Shown one piece after another: positions 120-45,394 of a stretch of 45,659 bases of DNA. Under the pieces are notes generated by a model that saw only the letters and a program-made list of their open reading frames with translations, ran no database searches and had not been told where the DNA came from. The stretch's first letter is position 1. Each line of letters begins with the position of its first letter. The stretch is from an uncultured Cycloclasticus sp. (lineage in GTDB: Bacteria; Pseudomonadota; Gammaproteobacteria; Methylococcales; Cycloclasticaceae). A program made the translations under genes and the position numbers. Location: the NCBI GenBank assembly GCA_913057515.1, contig CAJXOJ010000018.1:1-45659 (forward strand). Reading direction: 5' to 3'.

Positions 120-1340
120 TTATTCACCTGAAAGGCCAAAAGATTCGTGCAAAGTACGAACTGCTAACTCTAAATATTTTTCATCGACCACGACTGAAAT
201 TTTAATTTCTGATGTTGATATCATTCGAATGTTAATACCCTCGTCGGCCAAGGCTGTAAACATCTGGCTAGCAATGCCTGCATGCGAACGCATTCCAACG
301 CCAACGATGGATACTTTGACTATTTTATTATCCCCATCAACTTTTTCGGCGCCTAATTCAGCACAAATATTCTGTAAAATTTGCAGTGTTTTATCATAAT
401 CATTTCTATGGACGGTAAATGTAAAGTCTGTCGTTTTATCTTCTGCAACATTTTGAACAATCATATCAATTTCAATATTAGCTTCTGAAATTGGTTTTAA
501 TATCGCTGATGCTACACCTGGCATATCGGGTACACCTGCTAAGGTAACTTTTGCTTCATCACGATTAAACGCAATACCTGAAATTAGTGCCTTTTCCATC
601 TCATCGTCCTCATAAGTAATTAACGTGCCTTCACCATCAACAAATGTAGATAACACGCGTAATGGAACATTGTATTTCCCCGCAAATTCAACGGACCGAA
701 TTTGCAAAATTTTAGAGCCTAAACTGGCCATTTCCAACATTTCTTCAAAGGTTATTTTAGCTAATCTTTGCGCCTTAGGCTCCACTCGTGGGTCAGTCGT
801 GTATACACCATCTACATCTGTGTAAATTCGACACTCATCTGCTTTTAACGCTGCCGCCAATGCAACCGCTGTTGTGTCTGATCCACCTCGACCCAACGTT
901 GTAATGGCACCCTCTGCCGTAACACCTTGGAAGCCTGCCACAACGACTATTTTATTGTCGTTTAATGCCGCTTGAATGTTATCTGTTTGAATCTCTTCGA
1001 TACGTGCTTTGCTATGCGAGTTATCAGTAATAATTTTAACTTGCCCACCAGTGAACGATGAAGCCGCTTGGCCTAACTCTTCCAAAGCCATACATAACAG
1101 TGCAATGGTCACTTGCTCGCCGGTAGATAGCAGTACATCCATTTGTTTTTTGGAAGGTGCAGACTGCATTAACTGTGCTAAATCTGTCATCCTATTTGTT
1201 TCACCACTCATCGCCGATACAACTACAACAAGGTCATGACCTGTTGCATTTTTCTCATCGACTAACTTTTTAGCCACATTCTGAATTTTTTCAGCTGTAC
1301 CGACCGATGTACCACCGTACTTATGTACATGTAAACTCAT
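120..1340 (-). CDS. lysC: Aspartate kinase (aspartokinase), monofunctional
   Basis: Catalyses ATP-dependent phosphorylation of aspartate, the first step towards lysine, threonine, methionine and diaminopimelate. The 406-residue length is typical of the single-chain class. The N-terminal amino-acid-kinase domain opens with KYGGTSVG (residues 7-14) and contains the TTLGRGGSDTTA substrate loop (147-158). Two ACT regulatory domains fill about 265-335 and 343-405, so feedback inhibition by lysine and/or threonine is expected. It lies 109 bp downstream of alaS and upstream of csrA, the order seen in Pseudomonas. There is no homoserine dehydrogenase domain, which separates it from ThrA and MetL types. 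Confidence 0.96.
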   Translation of the reverse strand: MSLHVHKYGGTSVGTAEKIQNVAKKLVDEKNATGHDLVVVVSAMSGETNRMTDLAQLMQSAPSKKQMDVLLSTGEQVTIALLCMALEELGQAASSFTGGQVKIITDNSHSKARIEEIQTDNIQAALNDNKIVVVAGFQGVTAEGAITTLGRGGSDTTAVALAAALKADECRIYTDVDGVYTTDPRVEPKAQRLAKITFEEMLEMASLGSKILQIRSVEFAGKYNVPLRVLSTFVDGEGTLITYEDDEMEKALISGIAFNRDEAKVTLAGVPDMPGVASAILKPISEANIEIDMIVQNVAEDKTTDFTFTVHRNDYDKTLQILQNICAELGAEKVDGDNKIVKVSIVGVGMRSHAGIASQMFTALADEGINIRMISTSEIKISVVVDEKYLELAVRTLHESFGLSGE

Positions 1341-1383
1341 AATTATTTCACTGTTTTGTATTTAGTTATTGCCTATGAAACAT

Positions 1384-1409
1384 AGAATTAAAAATGTTTT
1401 TTTAATTCT
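1384..1409. repeat. AT-rich perfect inverted repeat between alaS and lysC
   Basis: Eleven-base arms (1384-1394 and 1399-1409, AGAATTAAAAA and its complement) flank a 4-nt loop. It lies in the alaS-lysC gap. It is AT-rich and so a weak hairpin. It could be a partial terminator or attenuator after alaS or a protein-binding palindrome; the function is unknown. Confidence 0.5.
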
Positions 1410-1449
1410 AATGATAGCGGCAGTGCTGTAGTTCTAAAGCTTATTAAAC

Positions 1450-4068
1450 TTAGTTTTTACCACCATTAAGTTTAGTCGCGACCCAACTAGGTACCGATTC
1501 TAAAGCCGCATCTAACGCACCAGGGTTATCACCTCCAGCTTGCGCCATATCAGGTCGGCCACCGCCTTTACCACCCACTTGTAGAGCCACTGAGTTGACC
1601 ATATCACCTGCTTTAATACGGCTGGTTTGGCTTTTTGAAACACCGGCAATCAAAGTCACTTTATTATCTTGAACGGTTGATAATACGATAGCTGCATCAC
1701 CCAGTTTATCTTTTAGTTGATCGACTAAATCACGAAGTGTTTTACTATCGCTACCGGCAATATTTGCGGCCAACACATTAACACCATCAACTTGTACTGC
1801 CTGATTGACTAGATCACCACTAGCCGCTTTTGCAAGCTGGCCTTTTAGTTGCTCTAACTCTTTTTCAAGTAATTTATTTTTTTCTTGAAGCTGTACAATT
1901 TTATCAATCGCAGAATCACGGTTGCCCTTTACGATATGACTGATGTCTTGTAGACGCTGATCACTCTCTTCAACCCACGACAGCGCACCTTCAGCCGCTA
2001 CCGCTTCGATACGTCTTACACCTGAAGCAATTCCAGTTTCCGATAGAATTTTCATTAACCCCATATCGCCGATACGCGTCACATGAGTTCCTCCACAAAG
2101 TTCTGTTGAGAAATCCCCCATCTTTAACACGCGAACCTTGTCTCCGTATTTTTCACCAAATAAAGCCATGGCACCATTAGCAATGGCGGTTTCTTGATCA
2201 GTGATTTGGGTTTCAACACTAACATTTGATCTAATTTGTGAGTTCACTAAACGCTCAATTTCTAACAATTGAGGCTTTGTGATGGGCTCAAAATGGCTAA
2301 AATCAAAACGTAACCGTGTCGCATTAACCAATGAGCCTTTTTGAGTGACATGTTCACCCAATACCTTACGTAAGGCCGCATGTAATAAATGCGTTGCTGA
2401 ATGGTTAGCAGCTGTGGCTAATCGGTTTTGACCATCAACTTCTGCACTAACAGTCTGTTGAACTTTAAATTCACCCTGGGACACCTTACCAATGTGAAAA
2501 TACGTTTCCCCCCTTTTTTGAACATCCAAAACGTCAAAGCTAGCATCTTGCACTGAAATAACACCACGATCGCCCGCTTGGCCTCCAGATTCCGCATAAA
2601 AAGGCGTTTTATCAAGCACCAAGTAGGCCTCGTCACCTGCATTTATTGACGCTAGCTCAACACCATCTTTATAAATAGCTTGTATCGTAGAATCTGCCTG
2701 AAGCAACTCATAGCCGATAAACTCTGTGCTTAAGTTTAAATCAGGCAATTCTGACTGCCCCACAGCAAATGAGCTAGAAGACCTTGCCCGTTCACGCTGT
2801 ACATCCATTGCTTTTTCAAAGCCTTCTAAATCAACCGTTAAGTTATTTTCTCTCGCATAATCGGCTGTCAAATCGACTGGAAAACCATAGGTGTCATATA
2901 GTTTGAAGGCTGTTTCACCTGTTATCAAATTGTTTTTTAGCGACTTTGTGCCGTCTTGCAGAAGCTTCATCCCTTGCTCTAAGGTTTCTGCAAAACGCTG
3001 CTCTTCTTTTAGCAAAATATTACTGACCATCTCAGCTTTAGTCTTCAACTCTGGGTAAGCTTCACCCATTTCCTCAACCAAGGGTTGAACTAGTTTATGA
3101 AAGAAGGCTTCTTTAGTCTCTAGTTTATAGCCATGACGGATCGCCCGACGAATAATACGACGCAGCACATAACCTCTTCCTTCATTAGAAGGCTGCACAC
3201 CATCGACGATTAAAAATGCACATGATCGAATATGGTCAACCAAGACTCGCAATGAAGTATCTTGCGTATCCTTCGTGTTAGTTAATTCAGCCGCTCTTTT
3301 AATCAAGGCCTGAAATAGATCAATATCGTAATTATTGTGAACGCCTTGTAGAACCGCGGCAATACGTTCTAAACCCATTCCCGTATCCACTGATGGTTTT
3401 GGCAGGGCTGTTAATTCACCTTTATCATTACGGTCATACTGCATGAAAACCAAATTCCATATTTCAACATAACGATCACCATCTTCTTCAGGTGTTCCGG
3501 GCGGTCCACCCGCTACCTCTTCACCATGATCATAAAATATTTCCGAACACGGGCCGCACGGACCTGTATCACCCATAGACCAAAAGTTATCCTTTGCACC
3601 AATGCGTGAAAGACGCTCCGGGCTTACACCTATTTCATTCAACCAAATATCGGCCGCTTCAGGGTCTTCATCAAAAACGGTAACCCAGAGCTTTTCTGCA
3701 GGTATGCCCATCTCTTCGACTAAAAAGCCCCATGCATAGTTAATCGCATCGCGTTTAAAATATTCACCGAAACTAAAATTACCCAACATTTCAAAAAACG
3801 TATGGTGACGAGCCGTATAGCCCACATTTTCTAAGTCGTTGTGTTTACCGCCAGCTCTTACGCATCGTTGAGAAGATGTCGCTTTAGTATACGAGCGCTT
3901 TTCTTGACCAAGAAAAACATCTTTAAACTGCACCATTCCAGCGTTAGTGAACAGTAGCGTTGGATCGGTGCCGGGCACTAACGAACTGGACGGTACGATG
4001 GTATGCCCTTGCTTTTCAAAATATGCCAAAAAAGCTGATCTAATCTCAGCACTACTTAAATTCTTCAT
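1450..4068 (-). CDS. alaS: Alanine--tRNA ligase
   Basis: Class II aminoacyl-tRNA synthetase that charges tRNA-Ala. The 872 residues match the usual bacterial length of about 875. The N-terminal aminoacylation core is recognisable from residues near 41-52 ([12 protein letters not shown]) and the [20 protein letters not shown] stretch at 71-90. The editing domain has both zinc/substrate motifs, HSATH (556-560) and CGGTH (658-662), so proofreading of Ser/Gly-tRNA-Ala should be intact. The C-terminal coiled coil and DHHA1-type domain end in a glycine-rich [15 protein letters not shown] segment. It starts 16 bp after recX and is probably cotranscribed with recA-recX. Confidence 0.98.
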
Positions 4069-15747: not shown

Positions 15748-18700
15748 ATGCTTAAACAAACGGACTCCATTGACATCTTTCCATGGAACGATAATTTCAA
15801 TACTGGCATTTTTAAAATAGATACGCAACATCGAGTACTGGTTGGTTTAGTAAACCAACTCGCTAACCAGGCTACCTTTCAAACTCACCCCCAAGAAATT
15901 AATAATATTCTGCAGCAACTCTTGGACTATGCCAGCATGCACTTTCAAAGTGAAAAAGAAATATGGCACCAATACCTACCAGAAGACTCCTTAGAGATCG
16001 ACCATAATAAAGAGCATGATAGCTTTATTAATCAAGTTAACAAATTAAAAGAAAATATCCACAAGAAACCTTTAGCTCACGTTATTGAGGAAACCATCAC
16101 CTTCCTCACCCATTGGTTAGCGATACATATCTTAGAAAAGGATCGACATATGGCCATGGTGGTCAGCGCCATGCAGAACGGCCACCCTATTGATGCGGCA
16201 AAAAAGCTCGCTGATCAACAGATGAGAGGGTCTACCAAAACATTAATTAATGTCATCTTGTCAATTTATCAAAACCTTTCGAAAAACTCTTTAAACTTAA
16301 TTCGTAAAATTGGTGAACAAAAACGTTTGGAAAGTGCATTAATCAATAGCGAAGAGAAACTTCTGCTTTTTATCAAAAATGCGCCTGCTTCCCTTGCTAT
16401 GCTTGACCTTAACATGAATTACATAGCCATCAGCCCACGCTGGCAATCAGACTTCAATCTGACAAACCAAGAGATTATCGGACAATCTCACTATAAGGTT
16501 TTTCCAAATATTTCAGACGAACACAAAAGTATAAACCGCCGAGCAATTAATGGTGAAACCATCACCCACGAAGGTGACTATTTCAAACTAAATAATGACA
16601 CAACACTGTGGATAAAATGGGAAGTGAGGCCGTGGCAAGATTTAGAAGGAAATATTGGCGGCCTTGTTATGTTTACCGAAGATATAACAAAGATTAAAAA
16701 AACTGAATTTGCTTATCAGCAAATGGCAAACACCTTAGTAAAAGCTCAAAAAATTGCTAATATAGGCAACTGGTCCTATCGGCTCAAAGACAACAAAATG
16801 GACTGCTCTGATCAGATTTATAAAATTTTTGATCGCAATCAAACGCTCGAACCTATAACATTTAATTCACTTGTCTCGTGGATTCATCCTGACGATCGAC
16901 CTTTGCTAACCGCATTTCAACAAGAAGTACACTCTATTGTAGCTAAAAAATCTAGCCACTTGAGCTCCCCCCTTTTTCGTCTAGTCCGCCCAGACGGGGA
17001 GATTCGCTGGATTGAGGTAACCGCAGAATCTGAGTTTAATGATAATGGAAAGCCAACCCAATGTTTTGGAACAGCACAAGATATCACTGAAAGAAAACAT
17101 GCTGAAACAAGACTATCCAAACTCACCATGGCCGTTGAACAAGCATCTAACTCAATATTTATCACAGACCTTAACGGAACTATAGAACACATCAATAAGG
17201 CATTCACGCAAATTACCGGCTACACCGCTCACGAAGTGGTAGGCAAAAACCCACGCATCCTAAACTCTGGCAAAAACCCAGCATCCACTTATAAAGAAAT
17301 GTGGGCGCAACTCTCACAAGGAAAAGAATGGCGGGGTGAACTGATTAATAAGGACAAGTTTGGTAATGAATATATCGAGGCATCACTCATGTCACCTGTA
17401 TACGACAACGCAGGTAAAGTAACAAATTATTTAGCCATCAAGGAAAATGTAACCGAAAAAAGACAAGCTGAGGAGCGCATCAAACAATTAGCTTACTTCG
17501 ACCAATTAACCGGTCTACCCAACCGAGGCCAGCTAAACCAGCGTTTTGAATATACCCTTGGGCTTGCTGAACGTAACGGCACACCATTTAGTTTGATGTT
17601 CCTCGATCTTGATCATTTCAAAAATATAAACGACACACTCGGCCACAGTATTGGTGATAAGGTTTTAATGGAAGCGGCTAATCGGCTTAAATCAGCTCTT
17701 CGGGAAAATGACACCTTATCACGTACAGGAGGTGATGAATTCATACTACTCTTACCTGATACTGATGAAGATGGCACCAGAGACGTAGCGATAAAACTAC
17801 TACAACTGATGTCTCACCCCTGCCAAATTGATCAACACGAATTGGTAAGCACCCTTTCAATTGGGATCGCCATGTACCCTGACGACGGCAGAGATTTTGA
17901 AACACTATCTAGCAATGCTGATACAGCCATGTACCGGGTCAAAAATGATTCACGTAATGGCTATTGTTTTTTTACCGAACAGATGCAAGCACTCTCAGCG
18001 CGATCACTAAAGCTCACAAATGCACTACATTACGCACTCAAAAACAATGAACTATCGCTTCACTATCAACCTCAACTATCTTTAGATGATGAACATATAA
18101 TCGGCGCTGAAGCATTGCTTCGTTGGCATCACCCTGAAATGGGAATGGTGCCACCTGTCGAGTTCATACATATTGCTGAAATTAGCGGCCAGATTTTAGA
18201 GATTGGTGAGTGGGTGATACGTACTGCTGTTAATCAATTAAAGCAATGGATTGACAAAGGCTTACCTCCTTTTGTCATTGCAGTTAACTTATCGGCGATT
18301 CAATTTCGTCACCCAAATTTACCTGAAATGGTCTCACAGATTCTTAATGAAGCCCAGCTTCCACATAAGTATTTGGAATTAGAGCTCACTGAGGCTGTCA
18401 TGATGGATAGCCCTGATACAGCTATTACGATTATGAATAACTGCCATGATCTAGGCATACATATGTCTATTGACGACTTTGGAACAGGCTACTCCAGCCT
18501 AAGCTACCTAAAAAAGTTTAAAGCTTACAAGTTAAAAATTGATCGGTCTTTTGTAACCGATATTACACAAGATCCTGACGATAAAGCCATTGTCTTAGCT
18601 ATCATCAATTTAGCAAAAAGCTTGGGCATGCTAACCATCGCCGAGGGGGTAGAAACAGCGGATCAATTAGCTTTTTTACGGCATAACGATTGCGATGAGG

Positions 18701-18792
18701 CTCAAGGATTTTACTTCAGCAAGCCCTTACCAGCACACGAATTTGAGTCATATGCGTTAACATGCGACAACAAAAATCAGCTCAATAAGTAA
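15748..18792 (+). CDS. Hemerythrin-PAS-PAS-PAS-GGDEF-EAL cyclic-di-GMP signalling protein
   Basis: A 1014-residue soluble sensor with no membrane segment or signal peptide. An N-terminal bacteriohemerythrin domain (about 10-140) keeps all seven di-iron ligands: H28, H65, E69, H86, H90, H127 and D132. Three PAS domains follow (about 205-325, 335-450, 455-570). The GGDEF domain has an intact GGDEF (661-665) and an upstream I-site RxxD (R652-D655) for product inhibition. The EAL domain has E788-A-L, NLSAIQF, ELTEAV, DDFGTGYSSL, KIDRSF and EGVE, so both synthesis and hydrolysis of c-di-GMP look possible. Inference: O2 or redox state at the di-iron site tunes c-di-GMP turnover. Good Shine-Dalgarno (AAGGAA). 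Located between kdsB and the phosphatase in opposite orientation. Confidence 0.95.
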   Translation: MLKQTDSIDIFPWNDNFNTGIFKIDTQHRVLVGLVNQLANQATFQTHPQEINNILQQLLDYASMHFQSEKEIWHQYLPEDSLEIDHNKEHDSFINQVNKLKENIHKKPLAHVIEETITFLTHWLAIHILEKDRHMAMVVSAMQNGHPIDAAKKLADQQMRGSTKTLINVILSIYQNLSKNSLNLIRKIGEQKRLESALINSEEKLLLFIKNAPASLAMLDLNMNYIAISPRWQSDFNLTNQEIIGQSHYKVFPNISDEHKSINRRAINGETITHEGDYFKLNNDTTLWIKWEVRPWQDLEGNIGGLVMFTEDITKIKKTEFAYQQMANTLVKAQKIANIGNWSYRLKDNKMDCSDQIYKIFDRNQTLEPITFNSLVSWIHPDDRPLLTAFQQEVHSIVAKKSSHLSSPLFRLVRPDGEIRWIEVTAESEFNDNGKPTQCFGTAQDITERKHAETRLSKLTMAVEQASNSIFITDLNGTIEHINKAFTQITGYTAHEVVGKNPRILNSGKNPASTYKEMWAQLSQGKEWRGELINKDKFGNEYIEASLMSPVYDNAGKVTNYLAIKENVTEKRQAEERIKQLAYFDQLTGLPNRGQLNQRFEYTLGLAERNGTPFSLMFLDLDHFKNINDTLGHSIGDKVLMEAANRLKSALRENDTLSRTGGDEFILLLPDTDEDGTRDVAIKLLQLMSHPCQIDQHELVSTLSIGIAMYPDDGRDFETLSSNADTAMYRVKNDSRNGYCFFTEQMQALSARSLKLTNALHYALKNNELSLHYQPQLSLDDEHIIGAEALLRWHHPEMGMVPPVEFIHIAEISGQILEIGEWVIRTAVNQLKQWIDKGLPPFVIAVNLSAIQFRHPNLPEMVSQILNEAQLPHKYLELELTEAVMMDSPDTAITIMNNCHDLGIHMSIDDFGTGYSSLSYLKKFKAYKLKIDRSFVTDITQDPDDKAIVLAIINLAKSLGMLTIAEGVETADQLAFLRHNDCDEAQGFYFSKPLPAHEFESYALTCDNKNQLNK

Positions 18793-35533: not shown

Positions 35534-36862
35534 TTATTTTTCAAATAACGCGATAGATTCAACATGAGAAGTATGAGGGAACATATCCATCACACCCGCT
35601 TTAACAAGCTTATAACCTAATTCGTTCACCAAAATAGCGGAATCACGTGCCAATGTGGACGGATTACATGAAACATACAAAACCTGCTCCGCACCCCACT
35701 TAGGCAAATAATGCAAAATCTCTTTCGCACCCAATCGTGGCGGATCAATTAATACTTTATTATATTTTTTCTTTGTCCACGCTTCATCACCGACATCTTC
35801 CATTAAGTTTGCAGTATAAAAGTCTACATTCTCTAAATCATTCCTATCGGCGTTTTCTTTTGCCCTGATTATCAGCTCTTCACTGCCTTCAACCCCAGTA
35901 ACCTGACCGGCCACACGTGCCATTGGTAGCGTAAAGTTACCCAAGCCACAGAACAAATCAAGTACGTTATCGTTTTCGTTAAGGTCAAGCGCTTCTAACG
36001 CTCTATTAATCATAGAGCGATTCAGTTCAACGTTAACTTGAACAAAATCACTAGGGCCGAAATATAAGGTCACATCATTAGGTAATTGGTAACTTAATGG
36101 TGGCTTTACACCACTCAAGGGCGCAATGGTATCTGGACCTTTAGACTGGGTATAGATATCCACATCAGCGGACTCTTCAAAACGTTTCAGAACGGCCTCA
36201 TCATCTGTCGTTAAAGGCTCTAAGATTCTAAATACCAAGGCTGTCCGATTATCGCAAATAGACACTTCAATCTGAGGGATTTTATCCTTAATCGACAAAT
36301 CGCCAACCAAGGACGATAAAGCCATTAGGCGTTTACCGACTGATGGATGCAACACCTCACATTGTTCAATTTCTGCTAAAAAAGGACTCGCCTTTTCTCT
36401 AAAGCCAACAAGAACACGTCCTTTTTTAGCCACATCTTTCACACCTAAACGTGCACGATGTCGATAGCCCCAGAAAGGCCCTTTCAAGGCAGGCCATAAA
36501 TCAATGTTTTCTAGTTTTGCAATGCTTTTGAATTGATCAATAAGGATGCTTTGCTTAGCGAGAATTTGCTTTGATGGTTCAAGGTGTTGAAAACTACATC
36601 CCCCACAAATCGAGTAATGCTGACAACCTGGCTCAACACGGTCTTCAGATGCTGTTAAAACCTCTGTAACTCGCCCTTCTGCAAAATCTTTTTTCTTTTT
36701 GCTATATTCAAACGTCACCTCTTCACCGGGTAAAGCACCGGCAATAAAAACCACTTTTTCATCCACATGGGCCACACCACGACCATCGTGTGCCATTGAC
36801 TCTATCGTTGCATTTGCAATTTCTGGAGGTAAATTTTTTCTTCTGTTTCTACGTCTCGCCAT
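35534..36862 (-). CDS. rlmD: 23S rRNA (uracil-1939-C5)-methyltransferase RlmD
   Basis: SAM-dependent m5U1939 methyltransferase. The 442 residues have an N-terminal TRAM domain, four cluster-binding cysteines C80, C86, C89 and C168 (iron-sulfur cluster expected), a SAM-binding VLDLFCGLGNFTLP, and the catalytic C399 in VSCNPSTLARD with E435 near the end. Adjacent to cysM in Pseudomonas and next to barA/relA in other gammaproteobacteria, which supports this assignment over RlmC or TrmA. Confidence 0.97.
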   Translation of the reverse strand: MARRRNRRKNLPPEIANATIESMAHDGRGVAHVDEKVVFIAGALPGEEVTFEYSKKKKDFAEGRVTEVLTASEDRVEPGCQHYSICGGCSFQHLEPSKQILAKQSILIDQFKSIAKLENIDLWPALKGPFWGYRHRARLGVKDVAKKGRVLVGFREKASPFLAEIEQCEVLHPSVGKRLMALSSLVGDLSIKDKIPQIEVSICDNRTALVFRILEPLTTDDEAVLKRFEESADVDIYTQSKGPDTIAPLSGVKPPLSYQLPNDVTLYFGPSDFVQVNVELNRSMINRALEALDLNENDNVLDLFCGLGNFTLPMARVAGQVTGVEGSEELIIRAKENADRNDLENVDFYTANLMEDVGDEAWTKKKYNKVLIDPPRLGAKEILHYLPKWGAEQVLYVSCNPSTLARDSAILVNELGYKLVKAGVMDMFPHTSHVESIALFEK

Positions 36863-37031: not shown

Positions 37032-37919
37032 TTAACCTGGGAAGACACCGGTTGAGATGTAACGGTCTCCACGATCACAAATAATGACAACGATCGTCGC
37101 ATTACTTAGCTGTTTTGAAAGCTCTAGCGCAACATGCGTAGCCCCACCCGATGAAACACCACAAAAAATACCTTCTTCCTCTGCTAACCGCCTCATCGTA
37201 GTCTCAGCTTGTTGTTGGTTAACTTCAAGAATCTCATCAACACGTGAGCGATCATAAATTTTTGGTAAGTACTCTTCTGGCCAACGACGAATACCCGGGA
37301 TTTTTGAATCTCCTTGCGGTTGAACGCCAACAATTCGAATATTGCTATTTTGCTCTTTAAGATACATCGATGTACCCATAATCGTACCGGTGGTACCCAT
37401 TGAGCTGACAAAGTGTGTCACCGCCCCAGCCGTATCACGCCAAATCTCAGGGCCCGTGCCCTTATAGTGGGATAAAGGGTTATCTGGGTTGGCAAACTGA
37501 TCTAGAATACGGCCTTCACCGTTAGATTCCATTTCCCTAGCTAAATCTATCGCTGCTTCCATACTGCCGGCAGCAGGCGTTAGTATAATCTCTGCACCAT
37601 ATGCTTTCATTGATGAGCGCCGTTCTTCGCTCATATTATCTGGCATAATCAATGTCATCCTGTAGCCTTTAATGGCCGCTGCCATCGCCAATGCAATACC
37701 AGTATTGCCACTCGTCGCTTCAATCAAGCGGTCACCGGGTTTAATATCACCTCGTAGTTCAGCCTGCTGAATCATATTAATGGCGGGCCTATCTTTCACT
37801 GAACCAGCTGGGTTGTTACCTTCTAGTTTAAGTAAAACATTGTTCGTTGTTAAATCCATCCTCTGTAATCTAACCAGCGGCGTATTGCCAACAAAGTCTT
37901 CAATCGTGGGGTATATCAT
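37032..37919 (-). CDS. cysM: Cysteine synthase B
   Basis: PLP-dependent O-acetylserine sulfhydrylase isozyme, able to use thiosulfate. The 295 residues have the PLP lysine K42 in NPAGSVKDRPA, a substrate loop EATSGNTGIALAMAA, and SSMGTTGTIMG near the phosphate cup. The RRWPEEYLPKIYD segment is characteristic of CysM rather than CysK. It precedes rlmD on the minus strand and diverges from the TonB receptor genes. Confidence 0.96.
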   Translation of the reverse strand: MIYPTIEDFVGNTPLVRLQRMDLTTNNVLLKLEGNNPAGSVKDRPAINMIQQAELRGDIKPGDRLIEATSGNTGIALAMAAAIKGYRMTLIMPDNMSEERRSSMKAYGAEIILTPAAGSMEAAIDLAREMESNGEGRILDQFANPDNPLSHYKGTGPEIWRDTAGAVTHFVSSMGTTGTIMGTSMYLKEQNSNIRIVGVQPQGDSKIPGIRRWPEEYLPKIYDRSRVDEILEVNQQQAETTMRRLAEEEGIFCGVSSGGATHVALELSKQLSNATIVVIICDRGDRYISTGVFPG

Positions 37920-38015
37920 TCGTTCCCTTCAAAACACAATAAACATGGAAGACTACCACACCTTACCACTCAGATTAATAGCTTTGGGTTATGTGCTTAG
38001 TGCCATATTTATATG

Positions 38016-38024
38016 CTAAAATTT
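38016..38024 (+). promoter_or_regulatory. Candidate extended -10 promoter of the receptor/kinase cluster
   Basis: A TGCTAAAAT extended -10 lies in the 127-bp gap between the divergent cysM and the first receptor gene, about 30 bp before the start. No matching -35 and no recognisable Fur box are seen. Confidence 0.35.
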
Positions 38025-38052
38025 TTCAAAAAAAAATAGGACTTGGTTGGCC

Positions 38053-40152
38053 ATGCAAAACACTAAACAGCTGCCTTTTGGCAAGCACTGTCTCTTCTTC
38101 ACACTCCTCTTTTGTGGTTTATCACCACCTGTAATCGCAAATGAAATAGATGATTTATCTTATTTCAACACGGACATCCCTATTATCTTGTCCGCTACCC
38201 GTCTAGCCCAACCTCAAACAGAAGCGCCAGCAACCATTACGCTTATTGACCGTCAGATGATTAAACTATCGGGAGCAAAAGCCATTCCTGAGTTATTTAG
38301 ACTAGTACCTGGCATGCACGTAAATTATTTTCGCGGCAACACACCTACTGTTGGTTACCAAGGCTTAAACAGTCAATTCCCTCAGGGCGTACAAGTGCTT
38401 GTTGATGGTCGGTCCATGTACAACCCTTTGTTTGGTGGCGTAAATTGGCGCTCTTTCCCCATCAGTATTGATGAAATCGAACGTATTGAGGTCATCCGTG
38501 GCTCTAATAGCACCTCGTTTGGTTCTAATGCCTTCCAAAGTGTTGTTAGCATTACAACGACTCATGCAAACCAAACAAATGGTGTACAGCTTAAGTCAAC
38601 CGTTGGCGAACGAGGTTACCAACGCTCTTACCTAAGACTCGGACACTCTTTTTCTGATGTGGATTTTCGCCTTAGTGCTTCTCACACTGATAATAACGGC
38701 TACGACAATAATCCAGATGATAGCCGACAAGATATGCTTAGCGCTCGGCTTGACTACCAAATAACCCCTTTTGACAGCCTTCAGATCAATGCGTCAGCCA
38801 CCAATACATTAGTAGAAACTGTTAACCCAGATCCCAGTGATTTTGGCACGATTGGTTTCGATCCAAGCGACCCACAACGTAATTTTGATGAATCAAACTT
38901 TGTACTTCATTCAAAATGGACGCATTTAACTCAAACCGAGCAACAGTTTATCACTCAACTTTCGTTTGCACGCTTTAAAACAAAAGATGCTTTTTCATCT
39001 TCTTTCACTGACCCTAACTTTGGCCCCGCACTTATCAACGTTGACTATACAACGGCTTTTGATCGCTGGGACTTTGAGTTTGAGCACCAACTTAAACCCA
39101 GCGAAAAAACTCGACTTACTTGGGGGCTATCGCTAAGAAGCGACAGAAGCTACCTACCATTATGGACAGGCACTCGTAGTAAGCACGATAATTCCCTACA
39201 GCGTCTGTTTAGTAATCTTGAATGGCGCCCCATAAAGGACCTCATTATAAATACAGGTGTTTTATTGGAACATAGCCAACGAATAGGTGATGATTTTGCG
39301 CCTCGCTTGGCCGCAAATTACTTATTAACCCCTTATCAAAGTTTGCGCTTTATCGCATCTGAATCATTTAGGTCGCCTGCCATTACTGAAAGTGACATTG
39401 ATGCTGAATTGGTAACCCATATCACCGGTGGCCCCTTCCAATCATTGAGCCCCTTAGTAACACCTATATTTGAATATACAAAGGGTATCAAGCCAGAAGT
39501 CGTTAACTCTTTTGAATTGGGTTATCACGGGCTATTTATTGACAACGCCTTAACCTTAGACCTTAAACTATATAGAAATGAGTATGATCGGCTTATTAGC
39601 GATATTAAGTGCCCTAGCTGTGAAGAAGGTAGCCTTGCTGGAATTCCCTTCAGTCAATTCCCATCTAACATAGGCGGGCCTATTGACCCGCCTATCAACG
39701 TTAGAACCCTATTAAACCGACATCAGGTGAACGTTAATGGGTATGAAATTGAAATCAACTACAAACCTAATAAACAAAACTTATTACACATGGGCTATGC
39801 CTATAACCATGCAAAAATTGGCCATATAACATCAGGTGATCTTGAAACGATACGTGCCTCATTCCCTAGCGATGTATTTAATGTACTACTGGCGCATACG
39901 TTTGATAGTGGCTTGTGGGGTAGCGTAGCTTTTTATTATACTGGCAGCCTCGAGAACCTTGATTCTGGCCAACCACAAGGCCCAATGAGGCGCTTAGACC
40001 TAAATACCGGCAAAACCTTTCAAGTTGCTGAAGGGCAAAACGTAGAGCTCAACCTAAGTTTGCAATTAGCACTTGATAAAAATAAAGATTTTCTCGATGA
40101 ATTTGTACTCGACAATCGAGCATTTATAGAGGTTAATTACAGCTATCAATAA
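38053..40152 (+). CDS. TonB-dependent outer-membrane receptor 1
   Basis: About 699 residues from the ATG at 38053; a TTG at 38047 is an alternative start, with AGGA 5 nt before it. An N-terminal signal peptide (ending near VIANE) is followed by a TonB-box-like IPIILSATRL and a plug domain (about 45-175) with GVQVLVDGRSMYNPLFGGV and IDEIERIEVIRGSNSTSFG, then a beta-barrel. An extracellular-loop segment near residues 519-540 has a CPSC pair absent from receptor 2. The last residues (YSYQ) lack the usual terminal aromatic. First gene of the receptor-receptor-SBP-kinase cluster. The substrate is unknown; uptake and/or signalling are possible. Confidence 0.92.
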   Translation: MQNTKQLPFGKHCLFFTLLFCGLSPPVIANEIDDLSYFNTDIPIILSATRLAQPQTEAPATITLIDRQMIKLSGAKAIPELFRLVPGMHVNYFRGNTPTVGYQGLNSQFPQGVQVLVDGRSMYNPLFGGVNWRSFPISIDEIERIEVIRGSNSTSFGSNAFQSVVSITTTHANQTNGVQLKSTVGERGYQRSYLRLGHSFSDVDFRLSASHTDNNGYDNNPDDSRQDMLSARLDYQITPFDSLQINASATNTLVETVNPDPSDFGTIGFDPSDPQRNFDESNFVLHSKWTHLTQTEQQFITQLSFARFKTKDAFSSSFTDPNFGPALINVDYTTAFDRWDFEFEHQLKPSEKTRLTWGLSLRSDRSYLPLWTGTRSKHDNSLQRLFSNLEWRPIKDLIINTGVLLEHSQRIGDDFAPRLAANYLLTPYQSLRFIASESFRSPAITESDIDAELVTHITGGPFQSLSPLVTPIFEYTKGIKPEVVNSFELGYHGLFIDNALTLDLKLYRNEYDRLISDIKCPSCEEGSLAGIPFSQFPSNIGGPIDPPINVRTLLNRHQVNVNGYEIEINYKPNKQNLLHMGYAYNHAKIGHITSGDLETIRASFPSDVFNVLLAHTFDSGLWGSVAFYYTGSLENLDSGQPQGPMRRLDLNTGKTFQVAEGQNVELNLSLQLALDKNKDFLDEFVLDNRAFIEVNYSYQ
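39670..39695. repeat. GC-rich inverted repeat inside receptor 1 gene
   Basis: Perfect 9-bp arms (39670-39678 and 39687-39695, core AGGCGGG/CCCGCCT) with an 8-nt loop, lying in the region encoding the loop after the CPSC pair. It is conspicuous against the AT-rich surroundings, but is in coding sequence with no T run, so any role is unknown. Confidence 0.5.
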
Positions 40153-40190
40153 AAGGACGTTGATATTAGCTAAACCATACATGGACTGTT

Positions 40191-42098
40191 ATGTTAAGAA
40201 TGCTTAAGAACGCACTAAAAACTTTGCTTTTACTGAGCATAACAAACGCCAGTTACGCTGTACACGACAGTATTTTTTTTGATCATCAGATCATTCCCGT
40301 CGTACTATCGGCGACCAAATTACCTCAGCTGCAAACTGAAGCACCCGCAAACATCACTGTTATTGACCGCGCACTTATTGAAGCATCAGGCGCTACGCAG
40401 GTTGCAGAGATATTCCGTTTAGTACCGGGTATGCAAATCGGTAACGCCCGTGGGAATTTTCCCATCGTTGCTTACCAAGGGCTCAGTTCTGAATTCCCAC
40501 AAGGAGTCCAAGTCATCATTGATGGCAGTTCCGTCTACTCGCCCGTCTTTGGTGGCGTTATTTGGAGCCTGTTACCCGTACTCTTAGAGGATATTGAACG
40601 AATTGAGGTGGTCAGAGGCCCTAATAATACGTCTTTCGGTGCTAATGCTTTCCAAGGCGTTATAAACATTACAACCGCTCATGCCTCTCAAGTCCCTAAG
40701 TTGACGAGCAGCTTTAGGCTCAATAACAACCAAGCCGAACGAGCTTTTTTACGATTTAGCAACTCACCCGTCAGTGACCGACTAAATTATCGCATCAGCG
40801 TTGCCTCAGAAAAAAAAGAAGGCTATAAAAATTTGGCTGATGACTTTAACAAGCATGAATTATCTAGTCGCGTAGATTTTCGTTTAAATACAAACAATAC
40901 CTTACAGTTTAATTTTTCTGCTCTAGATTCAATGCGAGAAACTCGCAACCCCTTAGCCATTGATATACCCATTGATCCGAAACGTGATCGTAACGAATCA
41001 ACTCAATTTGCCCAACTCATTTGGGAACAGCAAAAACCTAACGCTGAGCAATTAAATGCTAACCTGTCTTTCTATCATTATGATGGCAAGGACAAGTACC
41101 AGTTTGCTTCCAACACTTTGGACTTAACGACCGAATCTACACGCTGGAATATTGATCTTGAACATATTCAGACCTTAAGCGATTCACAACGTTTAGTCTG
41201 GGGCCTTGGCGCTTCGCACGAATCAGTTTATGCGCCCTTTAGAACCAACTCTCAGCGGACTCGCACTAATGCTCGTGTGCGGTTTTTTGGAAATATAGAG
41301 TCATATTTAGCAAATGCCCTGATATTAAATGTCGGTGGTTTAGTTGAGCATGACAAACTCTTCGGCGTTAACACCTCACCTCGTCTCAGCCTCAGTTACC
41401 TAGCCTCACATCAAGACAGCTATCGATTAACCGTTACTCAAGCATACAGAACACCCGTTATTTCTGAAGAAAAATATGAAATATCTTTACCAACAACCGG
41501 CATTATTCAAAAGTCAGCCGGTGACTTAGAGCCTGAAACAGTCAGCTCAATAGCAGCGGGGTATCATGGTATTCACCTGAAAAATAAGCTTAACACCGAC
41601 CTAAAACTTTTTCAAAATCGTTATGAAAAACTAATTAACAACGATTTAAATAAAGGTCTAAAAATTTTAGATAATCAAGATAATGCGAGAACCTATGGCG
41701 CTGAATTAGAAATCAACCTTCACCTTAACCGTCATAACATTGCTCATCTAGGGTACGCATACACACGTGTTAATCACTCATCAAGTGAGCGGCTAGAAGC
41801 CTCTATTCCTAAACATAATTTCAACCTATTGCTCTCACATCGTTATACCAATGGATGGCATAACAGCCTCGAATATTATTTTATGAGCGAAATGCAATAT
41901 TTAGGCGGCCAAAATGACCCTCAAGGTACCTACCAACGAATCGACCTATCCATTGGAAAGCTGATCAAGTTAGCAGATAATCAAACTATTGATATTACTC
42001 TTGATGCACAGCTCGCACTTAATAAAAATATAGACCTTCACCAACAGGCAACGGCTGATAATTTAATTTATCTCAGGGTTCAATATCATGTGGATTAG
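40191..42098 (+). CDS. TonB-dependent outer-membrane receptor 2 (paralogue)
   Basis: 635 residues, with a signal peptide (about 1-24, ending SYA) and a TonB-box-like IPVVLSATKL. By hand alignment its plug region is identical to receptor 1 at 82 of 132 positions; the barrels have diverged more and this one is about 65 residues shorter. Motifs include GVQVIIDGSSVYSPVFGGVI and LEDIERIEVVRGPNNTSFG. The C-terminus (QYHVD) again lacks the terminal aromatic. No strong Shine-Dalgarno is visible. It lies 38 bp after receptor 1 and overlaps the next gene by 11 bp. Tandem duplication with divergence is the simplest history. Confidence 0.92.
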   Translation: MLRMLKNALKTLLLLSITNASYAVHDSIFFDHQIIPVVLSATKLPQLQTEAPANITVIDRALIEASGATQVAEIFRLVPGMQIGNARGNFPIVAYQGLSSEFPQGVQVIIDGSSVYSPVFGGVIWSLLPVLLEDIERIEVVRGPNNTSFGANAFQGVINITTAHASQVPKLTSSFRLNNNQAERAFLRFSNSPVSDRLNYRISVASEKKEGYKNLADDFNKHELSSRVDFRLNTNNTLQFNFSALDSMRETRNPLAIDIPIDPKRDRNESTQFAQLIWEQQKPNAEQLNANLSFYHYDGKDKYQFASNTLDLTTESTRWNIDLEHIQTLSDSQRLVWGLGASHESVYAPFRTNSQRTRTNARVRFFGNIESYLANALILNVGGLVEHDKLFGVNTSPRLSLSYLASHQDSYRLTVTQAYRTPVISEEKYEISLPTTGIIQKSAGDLEPETVSSIAAGYHGIHLKNKLNTDLKLFQNRYEKLINNDLNKGLKILDNQDNARTYGAELEINLHLNRHNIAHLGYAYTRVNHSSSERLEASIPKHNFNLLLSHRYTNGWHNSLEYYFMSEMQYLGGQNDPQGTYQRIDLSIGKLIKLADNQTIDITLDAQLALNKNIDLHQQATADNLIYLRVQYHVD

Positions 42099-43044
42099 CC
42101 GCTTACTCCAAATAAAACGACCCTATACCCCTCTGCTTATCGTGCTATTACTGATGCCCATCACTTCGTTAGCACGAAACGTAACGCTTATTTATGACGA
42201 TAATAGTCGCTATCAAACTCATTTCGTTAACAGCTTGTCAAATCAGCTGCTTTCCAACACCCATGTAAATTTAACAACAATAACGACGGCGTTGCTCTCA
42301 ATAGAAACACTAAAAAAAGAACCTGGCGATATTATCGTTAACGTCAATAACGATACGATAAAAAAACTCATTGCATCCAATATACCCACAACGGTTTTTC
42401 ATGCTTTAGCCACCCTATCACGCTCTATCAGTTTCGCACCCTGCCTACCAGACTGTATAAAAGCACTCCCTAATCATCACTTTTTCATCTTAGACCAACC
42501 GCCCAACAGACAGCTCAATCTAATCCAACTCATTAACCCAACCTTTAAGGATGTTGGCGTCTTAGTAACCGAGCAATCAAAAAACCAATTGATGCCATTA
42601 CAAAAAATTGCCTCTCGTAAAAAACTACGCATTCACGAAGATGTTGGCAACTCAAAAAATGTTCGTTACAAAATAGATGCTATCTCAAAATCCTCTGATG
42701 TGATTTTAGCCATCGCCGATACTAATATATACAATGCTACTTCTCTTTCTCAAATTTTATTGACCAGTTATCGCTATAGAACCCCTGTCATAGGTTTCTC
42801 AAAGGGTTTTATTAGGGCTGGAGCTCTTGCCGGCACGGTCAGCACCATTGAGCAACTCGCTCAACATATCGCAGAAGCCATTGTGGAGTTAAGCAGCAGC
42901 CATAAACCCTTAGCTACCAGTATTATTCACCCGAAATACTTTAGTGTTATTAGTAATAGGAATGTTGCGAAAAGCCTACACTTACACTTCCCTAATGATA
43001 ATGAGTTAAAAGAACAGTTGATGACTTATGAATCTATTCAATAG
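42088..43044 (+). CDS. Periplasmic ABC substrate-binding-like protein
   Basis: 318 residues, with an N-terminal signal peptide or anchor (about 12-29, ending SLA) and a two-lobed binding-protein fold. The stretch ILLTSYRYRTPVIGFSKGFI followed by RAGALAG and STIEQLAQH is typical of the PF04392-type ABC substrate-binding family that is often coded next to TonB receptors and sensor proteins. No ABC permease or ATPase is nearby, so it probably acts as a ligand sensor or carrier rather than part of a classical importer. It overlaps receptor 2 by 11 bp and the kinase gene by 17 bp. Confidence 0.85.
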   Translation: MWISRLLQIKRPYTPLLIVLLLMPITSLARNVTLIYDDNSRYQTHFVNSLSNQLLSNTHVNLTTITTALLSIETLKKEPGDIIVNVNNDTIKKLIASNIPTTVFHALATLSRSISFAPCLPDCIKALPNHHFFILDQPPNRQLNLIQLINPTFKDVGVLVTEQSKNQLMPLQKIASRKKLRIHEDVGNSKNVRYKIDAISKSSDVILAIADTNIYNATSLSQILLTSYRYRTPVIGFSKGFIRAGALAGTVSTIEQLAQHIAEAIVELSSSHKPLATSIIHPKYFSVISNRNVAKSLHLHFPNDNELKEQLMTYESIQ

Positions 43045-45394
43045 GCTTCAGTTAAGCAATAAATTACTTCTTTTAGGGGTACTCCCAGCCGCTACACTCG
43101 CCTTCATACTCGCAGCTTACCTTACTTCAACTCGTTTGAACGACATGTATGAGCTATTACATAAAACAAATGAGAATTTATCCCATTCAATTGCTGAATC
43201 TAGTCTTAACAGTGTATTTTCCGGTAACTTAGACTCATTAGATAACATTGTGAGATCTGCCATTAACGAACCCGATGTTATTTCCATTCAAATTACCAAT
43301 AAAAGGGGAACTGTTCTTGCGCAAGCGAGCAACCATATTGCCACACCAACTCTACTAACACTGCCGCCTAAAAGAATTACTCAAGCCATCAACCTTAAAT
43401 CAATTAATCAAACTGATGATTTTGATGATTTACTCGTTGGCCCCCACCAAGAAACCAATGAAGTCATCGGTTATGTCATATTAACTCTATCCTATAACAG
43501 CATCCAACAACGCCAGCAAGATATATTACTCAACACCATTTTTATCACCTTGCTACTATTATTTATTATTGGCTTTATCGCAAAATATATCAGCAGCCTC
43601 ATCAGTCGCCCAATTCTTCAATTAACATCTGATGTTAAAAATATTAGCCAAGGAAATTACACTCCCCCTGCTAATAGCACTCACCCTGATAACAAGGATG
43701 AAGTCTCTACTCTTGCTCACGGTATTGATGAAATGGCACACCAAATTAATGACCACAAACAAATACAAGAGCAAAAAATTCTCGAGGCTACACAGGAGCT
43801 TAGGTTACAAAACGACAAGCTCTTTTCTGCTCAAGCTGAAATAGTTAAATCCGCAGAAGCAAAACTTCGGTTTATTTCACACATCAGCCATGAAATACGC
43901 ACTCCTTTAAATGGAATCATTGGTTTTCTTGAAATCATTCAGCAAACGCAGCTTGATAGTAATCAAGTTAAATTAGTTAACGCCTCCTACTCATCCTCAA
44001 AAAACTTACACACTATCATCAATGAAGTGCTTGATTTTGCCCAACTTGAGGCTGGCAAAATTATCATCAATAAAACTAATTTCAACCCTAAAGACACCAT
44101 TCAAGATGCTTTACTATTATTAACCTCCCAAGCACAAGACAATGGAGTAACACTAGAGTATCAGCAGCAAGAAAACCTACCCAAAATTATTCATCAAGAC
44201 CGTGTTAAATTTGGCCAAATACTGATCAATCTTCTTGGCAATGCCATCAAGTTCACGCATCATGCCAGTGTTACAGTTAAGCTAAGCCTTAACCCGCAAA
44301 AAAATAACACCCTTGAAATAAGCATCATTGATCAGGGTATTGGCATTAGCAAACATAACATAAAACAACTCTTTAAAGAGTATTCTCAACTTGACAATGA
44401 CACTCGTGAGCAAGGCAGTGGCTTAGGCTTGGCCATTACGAAACAAATCATAGATGCACTTCATGGCTCAATTATGGTTGAGAGCTCCTTAGGTAAAGGG
44501 TCAACATTTACTGTCAACTTACCGTTCACGCATGTAAAAGATAATTATATTAGTGGCGACACCGCAACACCGGATATAACGTCCCTACCTAATTTAAGCC
44601 CCTTAAGTATATTAGTCGCCGATGATAATGAAATTAATCGTTTGTTATTAACTCACTTACTAGAAAGGCAACACGCCAAAGTCAGCTGTGTGAATGACGG
44701 TCAGCAGGCAGTTGACCTAGCCCAGCAACAACGGTTTGATCTAATCCTCTTAGACCTGAAAATGCCCATTAAAATGGGAAGTGAAGCACTGCTTGAAATT
44801 CGCAGCCAAGCCGACAATCTCAACTATAAAACACCCGCTATTGCCATTACTGCTCACATTACATCGGGAGAGGAAAGGGCTCACCACATAAGCTCATTCG
44901 ATGGTTATCTAATTAAGCCTATTGAGCAACAAAAGTTTTTTCAGTTAGTTGAGCAGCTTATCAACGAACATGATTACGATACGCAGCCGTTTATATCTCC
45001 CAAGAAAAACAATAATAGTAATCTATCGAACAAACCTTTTGTTTATGAACTGGCTAAAAAGAGTATGAATGCAGACCCTTTATTCATGTCTATTATGCTT
45101 GAGAAATTTTTCTCTGAATTACCCAAATACGAAACAAGCATTTCCAAACTAATCATGCAGGGTGACTTTAAAGAAGCTGCGGCTATTGTTCATAAAGCAC
45201 ATGGATCTGCAGCCTATTGTGGAACCCCCTCAATAAAATTATCTGCCAAACAACTGGAAGAGGCGTTAGCATCAAGCGATAAACAACAGATTAAAAAAGC
45301 ACACACAAGATTCTGTCGTAATATAAAAACTTTACTCGGATTAAAGATCGATATTCTCACCTTATTAGGTAATGAATCCCCTAAAGTTAATTAA
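43028..45394 (+). CDS. GacS/BarA-like hybrid sensor histidine kinase
   Basis: 788 residues: TM1 (about 9-31), a periplasmic sensor (32-162), TM2 (about 163-190), HAMP, then the kinase with phospho-acceptor H288 (ISHEIRTPLNG), N box LINLLGNAIKF, G boxes DQGIGIS and GSGLGLAITKQI. A receiver follows with D576 (ILLDLKMP), then a C-terminal HPt domain with H725 in HKAHGSAAYCGTP. The architecture and the HPt resemble BarA/GacS, and the locus beside rlmD-cysM is where barA/gacS usually lies. Fused by a 17-bp overlap to the substrate-binding gene upstream. No response regulator gene is in the window. Confidence 0.93.
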   Translation: MNLFNRLQLSNKLLLLGVLPAATLAFILAAYLTSTRLNDMYELLHKTNENLSHSIAESSLNSVFSGNLDSLDNIVRSAINEPDVISIQITNKRGTVLAQASNHIATPTLLTLPPKRITQAINLKSINQTDDFDDLLVGPHQETNEVIGYVILTLSYNSIQQRQQDILLNTIFITLLLLFIIGFIAKYISSLISRPILQLTSDVKNISQGNYTPPANSTHPDNKDEVSTLAHGIDEMAHQINDHKQIQEQKILEATQELRLQNDKLFSAQAEIVKSAEAKLRFISHISHEIRTPLNGIIGFLEIIQQTQLDSNQVKLVNASYSSSKNLHTIINEVLDFAQLEAGKIIINKTNFNPKDTIQDALLLLTSQAQDNGVTLEYQQQENLPKIIHQDRVKFGQILINLLGNAIKFTHHASVTVKLSLNPQKNNTLEISIIDQGIGISKHNIKQLFKEYSQLDNDTREQGSGLGLAITKQIIDALHGSIMVESSLGKGSTFTVNLPFTHVKDNYISGDTATPDITSLPNLSPLSILVADDNEINRLLLTHLLERQHAKVSCVNDGQQAVDLAQQQRFDLILLDLKMPIKMGSEALLEIRSQADNLNYKTPAIAITAHITSGEERAHHISSFDGYLIKPIEQQKFFQLVEQLINEHDYDTQPFISPKKNNNSNLSNKPFVYELAKKSMNADPLFMSIMLEKFFSELPKYETSISKLIMQGDFKEAAAIVHKAHGSAAYCGTPSIKLSAKQLEEALASSDKQQIKKAHTRFCRNIKTLLGLKIDILTLLGNESPKVN

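Follow-up and report, generated by a model that had tools for sequence, protein, structure and literature searches.

A conserved cluster of TonB receptor, binding-protein and GacS/BarA-like kinase genes in Cycloclasticus as a candidate sensory module

How could a molecule outside the cell switch a global regulator of the GacS/BarA type? A gene cluster in an uncultured Cycloclasticus sp. suggests a route. The DNA analysed (the window) is 45,659 nucleotides long and is one entire contig (CAJXOJ010000018.1, here G000:C18) of a 2.48-Mb genome in 97 contigs. It encodes two TonB receptors, a periplasmic binding protein and a hybrid sensor kinase (Table 1). An earlier reading of the sequence alone had placed these four genes on one strand, with junction overlaps of 11 bp and 17 bp and with no ABC permease or ATPase encoded within the cluster; coordinates and domain families bear this out, and both overlaps are exact. 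We compared the window's own genome (G000) with 17 congeners and with further genomes (other G numbers; loci carry L numbers). On balance, we favour the view that the cluster serves a GacS/BarA-type kinase as a dedicated sensory input, acting via the binding protein and a GacA-type regulator.

The gene order is not confined to this strain, a possibility that the sequence-only reading had raised against itself. Divergent cysM (named, like rlmD, from its sequence) followed by one or more receptors, the binding protein and the kinase is the arrangement also seen in 13 of the 17 congeners and in a genome of another family, G029, which makes 15 focal loci with the window. At 13 of the 15, cysM lies upstream, and at the other two the contig ends first. 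The binding-protein and kinase frames overlap at every one, by 4–23 bp as measured on first-start reading frames and by exactly 17 bp in ten. Because the order recurs at 14 other loci and the overlap at all 15, we regard the cluster as more than chance. The two genes are also inherited together. Apart from the window's genome, 13 of 17 congeners and G029 have the binding protein, and a kinase sensor orthologue was detected in 14 of the 17; both were present in 13 congeners and both absent in three (G011, G015 and G016). A kinase with no binding protein in view is confined to G005, whose contig breaks off within the kinase gene. Among the absences, the place beside cysM in G016 is contiguous and occupied by other genes, the G015 contig ends after receptor remnants, and just 1.6 kb precedes cysM in G011. 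Separately, the binding-protein/kinase pair is present twice in G001 (G001:C197, which is L038, and G001:C56), once cut by a contig end, and the L038 kinase is split into two frames.

The receptors are less constant. Six congeners (G003, G004, G008, G010, G013 and G014) lack receptor 2 or have it only in decayed form. All 13 cluster-bearing congeners have a type-1 receptor, which in 12 is intact or truncated solely where the contig stops and in G002 lies as two fragments on another contig; G006, G007 and G008 have it in two copies. Given this variability of receptor 2, what is conserved as a unit is the binding protein and the kinase with a receptor-1-type gene.

Pairwise distances point the same way. 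Across 11 of the 15 loci (L038 was dropped for its broken kinase, L040 and L043 for contig ends and L047 for a partial kinase), binding-protein and sensor distances correlated at r = 0.89, or 0.81 as a partial correlation on rlmD, and 0 of 2000 permutations gave a value as high. The corresponding partial correlations with the binding protein were 0.67 for the kinase core, 0.24 for cysM and 0.09 for receptor 1. When single genomes were left out in turn, the binding protein/sensor value stayed at 0.70–0.83. We treat the correlation as suggestive only, because without three deep genomes the sensor is no longer special: the values with the binding protein were then 0.66 for the sensor, 0.76 for the kinase core and 0.49 for receptor 1.

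The sequence-only reading had further held that the binding protein serves no importer. A search confined to BPD_transp_2 (PF02653), which we take to be the permease family expected for binding proteins of its type, found no match in eight of nine genomes, the window's own included. The exception, G014, has two adjacent BPD_transp_2 permeases, and 12 of 14 control genomes were positive; detection of the G014 permeases means that the search was able to find them. The lack of a match in eight of nine genomes strengthens the claim genome-wide and is our reason for judging a role in import unlikely. The protein itself matches ABC_sub_bind (PF04392) at 39 bits (cut-off 25.9) and has a hydrophobic N-terminal segment with no visible lipobox. 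Its AlphaFold2 model (predicted local distance difference test, pLDDT, 87.1) has 3lft, 3lkv and 6hni as nearest solved folds, LuxP (2hj9_B) is among its structural matches, and Asp211 is invariant in 16 aligned proteins. According to excerpts of one report, the nearest three solved binding proteins, TrpX, CD0873 and VC_1101, each hold an aromatic amino acid, and CD0873 is part of an importer (PMC6816091); the window protein has the family and fold in common with them, but shares about 15% identity and comes without such a permease.

The two receptors are paralogues with 36% identity. Their best NCBIfam match is the TOL_0244 family (NF053590), at 178 bits for receptor 1 and 195 bits for receptor 2, both far under the curated cut-off of 645 bits, which leaves a likeness to the TOL_0244 and OmpS receptors of hydrocarbon degraders as a hint of a hydrocarbon role only. 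Excerpts of one study give a sevenfold increase of the TOL_0244 protein on a long-chain alkane and set this protein beside OmpS, a receptor that is reportedly essential for detecting and using alkanes (PMC6304351). Only Plug and barrel domains were detected in the window receptors at E ≤ 0.001, with no N-terminal signalling (STN) domain, and FecA-type transduction was ruled out on that ground. Cycloclasticus is a marine bacterium that degrades oil hydrocarbons; from the solved homologues, the receptor model and this lifestyle, one may reasonably, if weakly, guess at a ligand that is aromatic or related to hydrocarbons.

The combination of receptor, binding protein and signalling protein extends well beyond the focal loci. 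The window's own genome has a second such cluster (G000:C2, L033), whose 1482-aa kinase ends in GGDEF-EAL. We surveyed 48 other loci of the same taxonomic order (probably Methylococcales), chosen by us from the sequence matches, with the 15 focal loci and three-domain proteins left aside; 44 of them gave 46 binding-protein frames, the broken gene of L226 counting as two. A kinase or GGDEF protein lay within 110 bp of, or was fused to, 36 of the 46 frames, a TonB receptor lay within 900 bp of 36, and 29 had both kinds of neighbour. Ten had no signalling neighbour, and none of the surveyed frames gave a match to a LIV-type permease query. A natural fusion in G049, also of this order, joins ABC_sub_bind, one transmembrane (TM) segment, PAS, HisKA and HATPase in 797 aa. 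At related clusters, the outputs scanned are either GGDEF-EAL proteins or hybrid kinases with GGDEF-EAL at their end; these clusters, G000:C2 among them, share the three-part arrangement with the window, whereas the window's output is a GacS-type phosphorelay.

Two Massilia plasmids typed as mobilizable (L299, NZ_CP012641.2; L300, NZ_CP103372.1) carry, between partition (par) and transfer (tra) genes, a module of response regulator, CPBP protease, TonB receptor, binding-protein relative and HAMP kinase. By tblastn, the binding-protein relatives match the window protein at E 1e-12 and 6e-11, but they gave no PF04392 match; the one Massilia kinase scanned (WG5) is of the HisKA_3 type, and plasmid searches gave few relatives. 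Found across the order and on plasmids, the trio looks like a reusable outer-membrane-to-cytoplasm signalling module, of which we found no description in the literature searched, short of a full review.

Variants of this design were seen at several loci. An apparent TonB receptor end, a short protein and a sensor-kinase-like frame occur at L155, L156, L157, L160 and L161, where the receptor ends were judged by eye and a BLAST match was obtained in L157 only; at L155 and L160, the two that were scanned, the short protein is of the YfiR-like family PF13689, an apparent alternative adaptor. Such receptor, YfiR-like and kinase clusters seem to follow an analogous design within the order. L186 encodes a 989-aa protein (553–3522, minus strand) with three consecutive ABC_sub_bind domains, and seven further genomes of the order have single frames with two or three ABC_sub_bind matches. 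Beside cysM–rlmD in two other families lie a receptor/ABC_sub_bind/kinase set (L104) and an ABC_sub_bind/kinase pair (L119); their kinases are of the GGDEF-EAL type and belong to another clade than the window kinase.

Is the window kinase a GacS/BarA kinase? It runs TM1, periplasmic Cache-like sensor, TM2, HAMP, HisKA, HATPase, receiver and Hpt, and thus has the HAMP-HisKA-HATPase-receiver-Hpt order of that group. E. coli barA is divergent from, and adjoins, rlmD; in the window, cysM and the receptor and binding-protein genes intervene between rlmD and the kinase. The Hpt motif HxxHGxxxYxGxP, which we defined from E. coli BarA and the Cycloclasticus kinases, occurred in 9 of 1647 reading frames, namely eight Cycloclasticus kinases and E. 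coli BarA. Six more Cycloclasticus kinases carry variants of it, and GacS-like kinases of other families, cut before Hpt, fall outside this comparison. On its periplasmic part alone, the Cycloclasticus sensor profile matched GacS-like sensors of the same order at 98.9% probability (E 1.3e-17). A single-sequence profile comparison with E. coli BarA gave no match and was powerless, BarA itself having failed against the order's GacS-like sensors. The sCache_4 family (PF09984) scored 48.6 bits in the G029 kinase, 21.4 in that of G017 (cut-off 22.1) and 174.8 in E. coli BarA; it was above cut-off in all three scanned of the GacS-like kinases L149–L154, which come from another family of the order and have no binding-protein gene in the available flanks. 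Among matches listed for the BarA model (E 1e-30 or better, with 40 candidates scored per genome where more existed), the cluster kinase was the sole one to run from the BarA N terminus into the kinase core in G000, G007, G008, G014 and G029.

The structure model of the sensor is of moderate quality (pLDDT 76.9, predicted TM-score, pTM, 0.51). It matches WalK-type and LapD-type domains best, and a solved GacS sensor is not among the best 50 structural matches listed. Across 14 Cycloclasticus kinases, no basic residue is invariant in sensor aa 37–161, and a basic pocket has been proposed in Pseudomonas GacS (excerpts of PMC7695008). A sensor without invariant basic residues would fit docking of a protein. 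Taken together, the window kinase is probably a diverged GacS/BarA type, and this genus's regulator of that type. The label 'GacS/BarA-like', given from sequence alone, proves more literal than was argued, through the barA place, the Hpt motif and the sensor profile. The likeness extends to the divergence from rlmD, the Cache-like sensor and, within the genus, a GacA homologue, a GacA box and a GGA-rich small RNA (sRNA); the window kinase differs in its 788-aa length, in scores below curated cut-offs and in the binding-protein and TonB receptor genes that accompany its own. We know of no GacS/BarA kinase with such partners, and a limited literature search showed none.

Further parts of a Gac/Rsm pathway are encoded elsewhere. 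The window's genome has a GacA homologue (G000:C74:2805–3449), with counterparts of at least 72% identity in 12 of 17 congeners (13 of 18 genomes with its own); G015 has a fragment at a contig end, G002 a 30%-identity match only, and G001, G008 and G016 gave no GacA match at E 1e-20. The GacA box, searched as an exact pattern, was found in 7 of 12 genomes (0 in the reversed control), and seven of nine box sites lie upstream of a conserved sRNA. In the window's genome this sRNA adjoins a gene that we take to resemble typA. It has 9 GGA in 163 nt, compared with a shuffle mean of 2.9 (0 of 2000 shuffles as high). Four of its hairpins present GGA in their loops, and its end is terminator-like. Rfam searches of five of the nine box loci gave two matches, on L260 only and both under gathering scores. 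CsrA was found in six of eight genomes.

These observations suggest the following mechanism. The TonB receptors would bring a scarce or poorly diffusing compound over the outer membrane, and the PF04392 protein would capture it in the periplasm and dock on the Cache-like domain of the kinase instead of feeding an importer. Ligand occupancy would shift the kinase/phosphatase balance, and phosphate would pass from HisKA to receiver to Hpt, for which domains and motifs are present, and on to a GacA-type regulator encoded elsewhere. This regulator would act at the GacA box of an Rsm/Csr-like sRNA, and hence on CsrA targets; the parts occur in the genus and the wiring is our proposal. We propose docking because co-inheritance, the gene overlap and the natural fusion elsewhere support it. 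That the binding protein signals to the kinase, as first suggested from the sequence, is supported by the overlap, the joint presence and absence, the G049 fusion and the trios in the order and in Massilia. The path from receptor to binding protein to kinase is well supported as to its kind, whereas docking and the ligand are putative. LuxP–LuxQ and TorT–TorS similarly have a periplasmic binding protein encoded beside a hybrid kinase (E. coli torT and torS are adjacent); the window differs in its PF04392 protein, its Cache/GacS-type sensor and the TonB receptors in the cluster.

A number of results weigh against this reading, and they are taken here together with the alternatives on which they bear. 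The window kinase gave no match to sCache_4. It scored 386 bits with the BarA model NF008318, for which the curated cut-off is 890, and matched in two blocks (BarA positions 3–523 and 665–890), the stretch 524–664 between HATPase and receiver being missing. A kinase-core tree puts the 14 Cycloclasticus kinases, as one clade (100/100), in a polytomy with BarA and others. The 1660-aa kinases linked to a substrate-binding protein (SBP), next best among four other sensor groups compared, also match the sensor profile (96.3%, E 1.7e-9), and the second SBP-linked kinase of G000 weakly matches BarA positions 34–219 (22.5 bits). Downstream, G001, G002 and G008 have the kinase without a GacA orthologue (G001 is 73% and G002 80% complete) and G011 has GacA without such a kinase, and strict co-loss is accordingly not clean as proof of partnership. 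No exact GacA box was found in G003, G004, G007, G014 or G029, of which G007 and G014 are single-contig, and the box also occurs in G011, G015 and G016, all without the kinase. Neither the window's genome, which is incomplete, nor G015 gave a CsrA match; because csrA of G017 shares a contig with the cluster and the window contig begins at an aspartate kinase gene, csrA of G000 may fall outside the assembled part. In a rival explanation, the binding protein does regulate the kinase, but the kinase would be a dedicated local sensor with some other response regulator and not the GacS of the genus, its barA-like traits reflecting common descent only. The loose co-occurrence with GacA, the polytomy and the score below the BarA cut-off favour this explanation, as do the several related systems that carry their own GGDEF-EAL outputs. 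The BarA-like Hpt motif, the GacS-like sensor profile and the barA position speak against it, together with the lack, among matches listed, of any other strong BarA N-terminus-into-core match in five cluster-bearing genomes and a cluster without a response-regulator gene; we give it a real but limited chance.

The pairing of binding protein and kinase could also have no bearing on signalling: receptors and binding protein would import a nutrient through a permease of another family, and the kinase would be merely co-transcribed. There is a precedent in Pseudomonas aeruginosa, where an SBP and a kinase encoded as neighbours were found not to interact (excerpts of PMC11113362). Receptor genes turn over, and receptor-1 distances correlate little with those of the binding protein. 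The absence of BPD_transp_2 from eight of nine genomes, the kinase/GGDEF adjacency or fusion in the survey and the joint presence or absence of the two genes make such independence improbable. YfiR, the periplasmic inhibitor of YfiN, is the model for a different relation, in which the binding protein would regulate the kinase independently of a ligand or as an inhibitor, released by the state of the envelope or receptor and not by a small molecule. YfiR-like proteins do adjoin kinases at two scanned loci, apparently with receptors, and the sensor model weakly resembles the LapD-type periplasmic output domain; against this, the fold of the binding protein is of the ligand-binding PF04392 type and keeps an invariant Asp211, and we consider a regulator of this kind quite unlikely.

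A 2020 review describes the GacS ligand as unknown (excerpts of PMC7695008). An operon-encoded presumed ligand carrier of a GacS-type kinase is a purifiable handle for ligand screening and sensor tests. The cluster also suggests how oil degraders could couple global post-transcriptional control to a substrate cue. A more specific but doubtful idea is that the Cycloclasticus Gac/Rsm switch is set by one particular outside compound, plausibly aromatic or derived from hydrocarbons, which the TonB receptors would capture and the dedicated binding protein would present to the kinase. If true, the kinase would be, as far as known, the first of the GacS/BarA type with a genetically encoded ligand-delivery route.

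Table 1 Features of the cluster, its surroundings and the associated sRNA (window coordinates unless another contig is named)
Feature	Position	Strand	Remarks
TonB receptor 1	38047–40152	+	Plug + beta-barrel; TTG at 38047 probably not the start, in-frame ATG at 38053 the likely real start
TonB receptor 2	40191–42098	+	Plug + beta-barrel
Periplasmic binding protein	42088–43044	+	PF04392 ABC_sub_bind
Hybrid sensor kinase, probably GacS/BarA type, 788 aa	43028–45394	+	HAMP, HisKA, HATPase_c, Response_reg, Hpt
Receptor 2/binding protein overlap, 11 bp	42088–42098	+	
Binding protein/kinase overlap, 17 bp	43028–43044	+	
Periplasmic sensor, aa 35–165	43130–43522	+	Proposed docking surface for binding protein
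HisKA + HATPase_c	43859–44530	+	H-box SHEIRTP starting at aa 287; also N, G1 and G2 boxes
Receiver domain, Asp576	44609–44950	+	
Hpt, BarA-like motif H-x2-HG-x3-Y-x-G-x-P (His722)	45095–45286	+	
rlmD + cysM, divergent neighbours	rlmD 35534–36862, cysM 37032–37919	-	Names assigned from sequence
Divergent intergenic region with conserved block	37920–38046	undefined	Block probably cysM-side
GGA-rich sRNA with exact GacA box, unannotated	G000:C12 ~66490–66726 (L265)	-	Also L260–L264, L268

The intergenic block between cysM and receptor 1 was considered as a cluster-specific operator and dropped, as it stands before cysM in the cluster-less G011 and, as a variant, in G016; its presence before cysM there makes it probably cysM-side. 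Downstream of the kinase, a 96-aa reading frame (45372 to the contig end) had no family match, and no BLAST match in 20 loci compared. Elsewhere in the window, positions 15748–18792 (plus strand) encode a Hemerythrin-PAS-GGDEF-EAL protein, probably an oxygen- or iron-linked cyclic-di-GMP enzyme.

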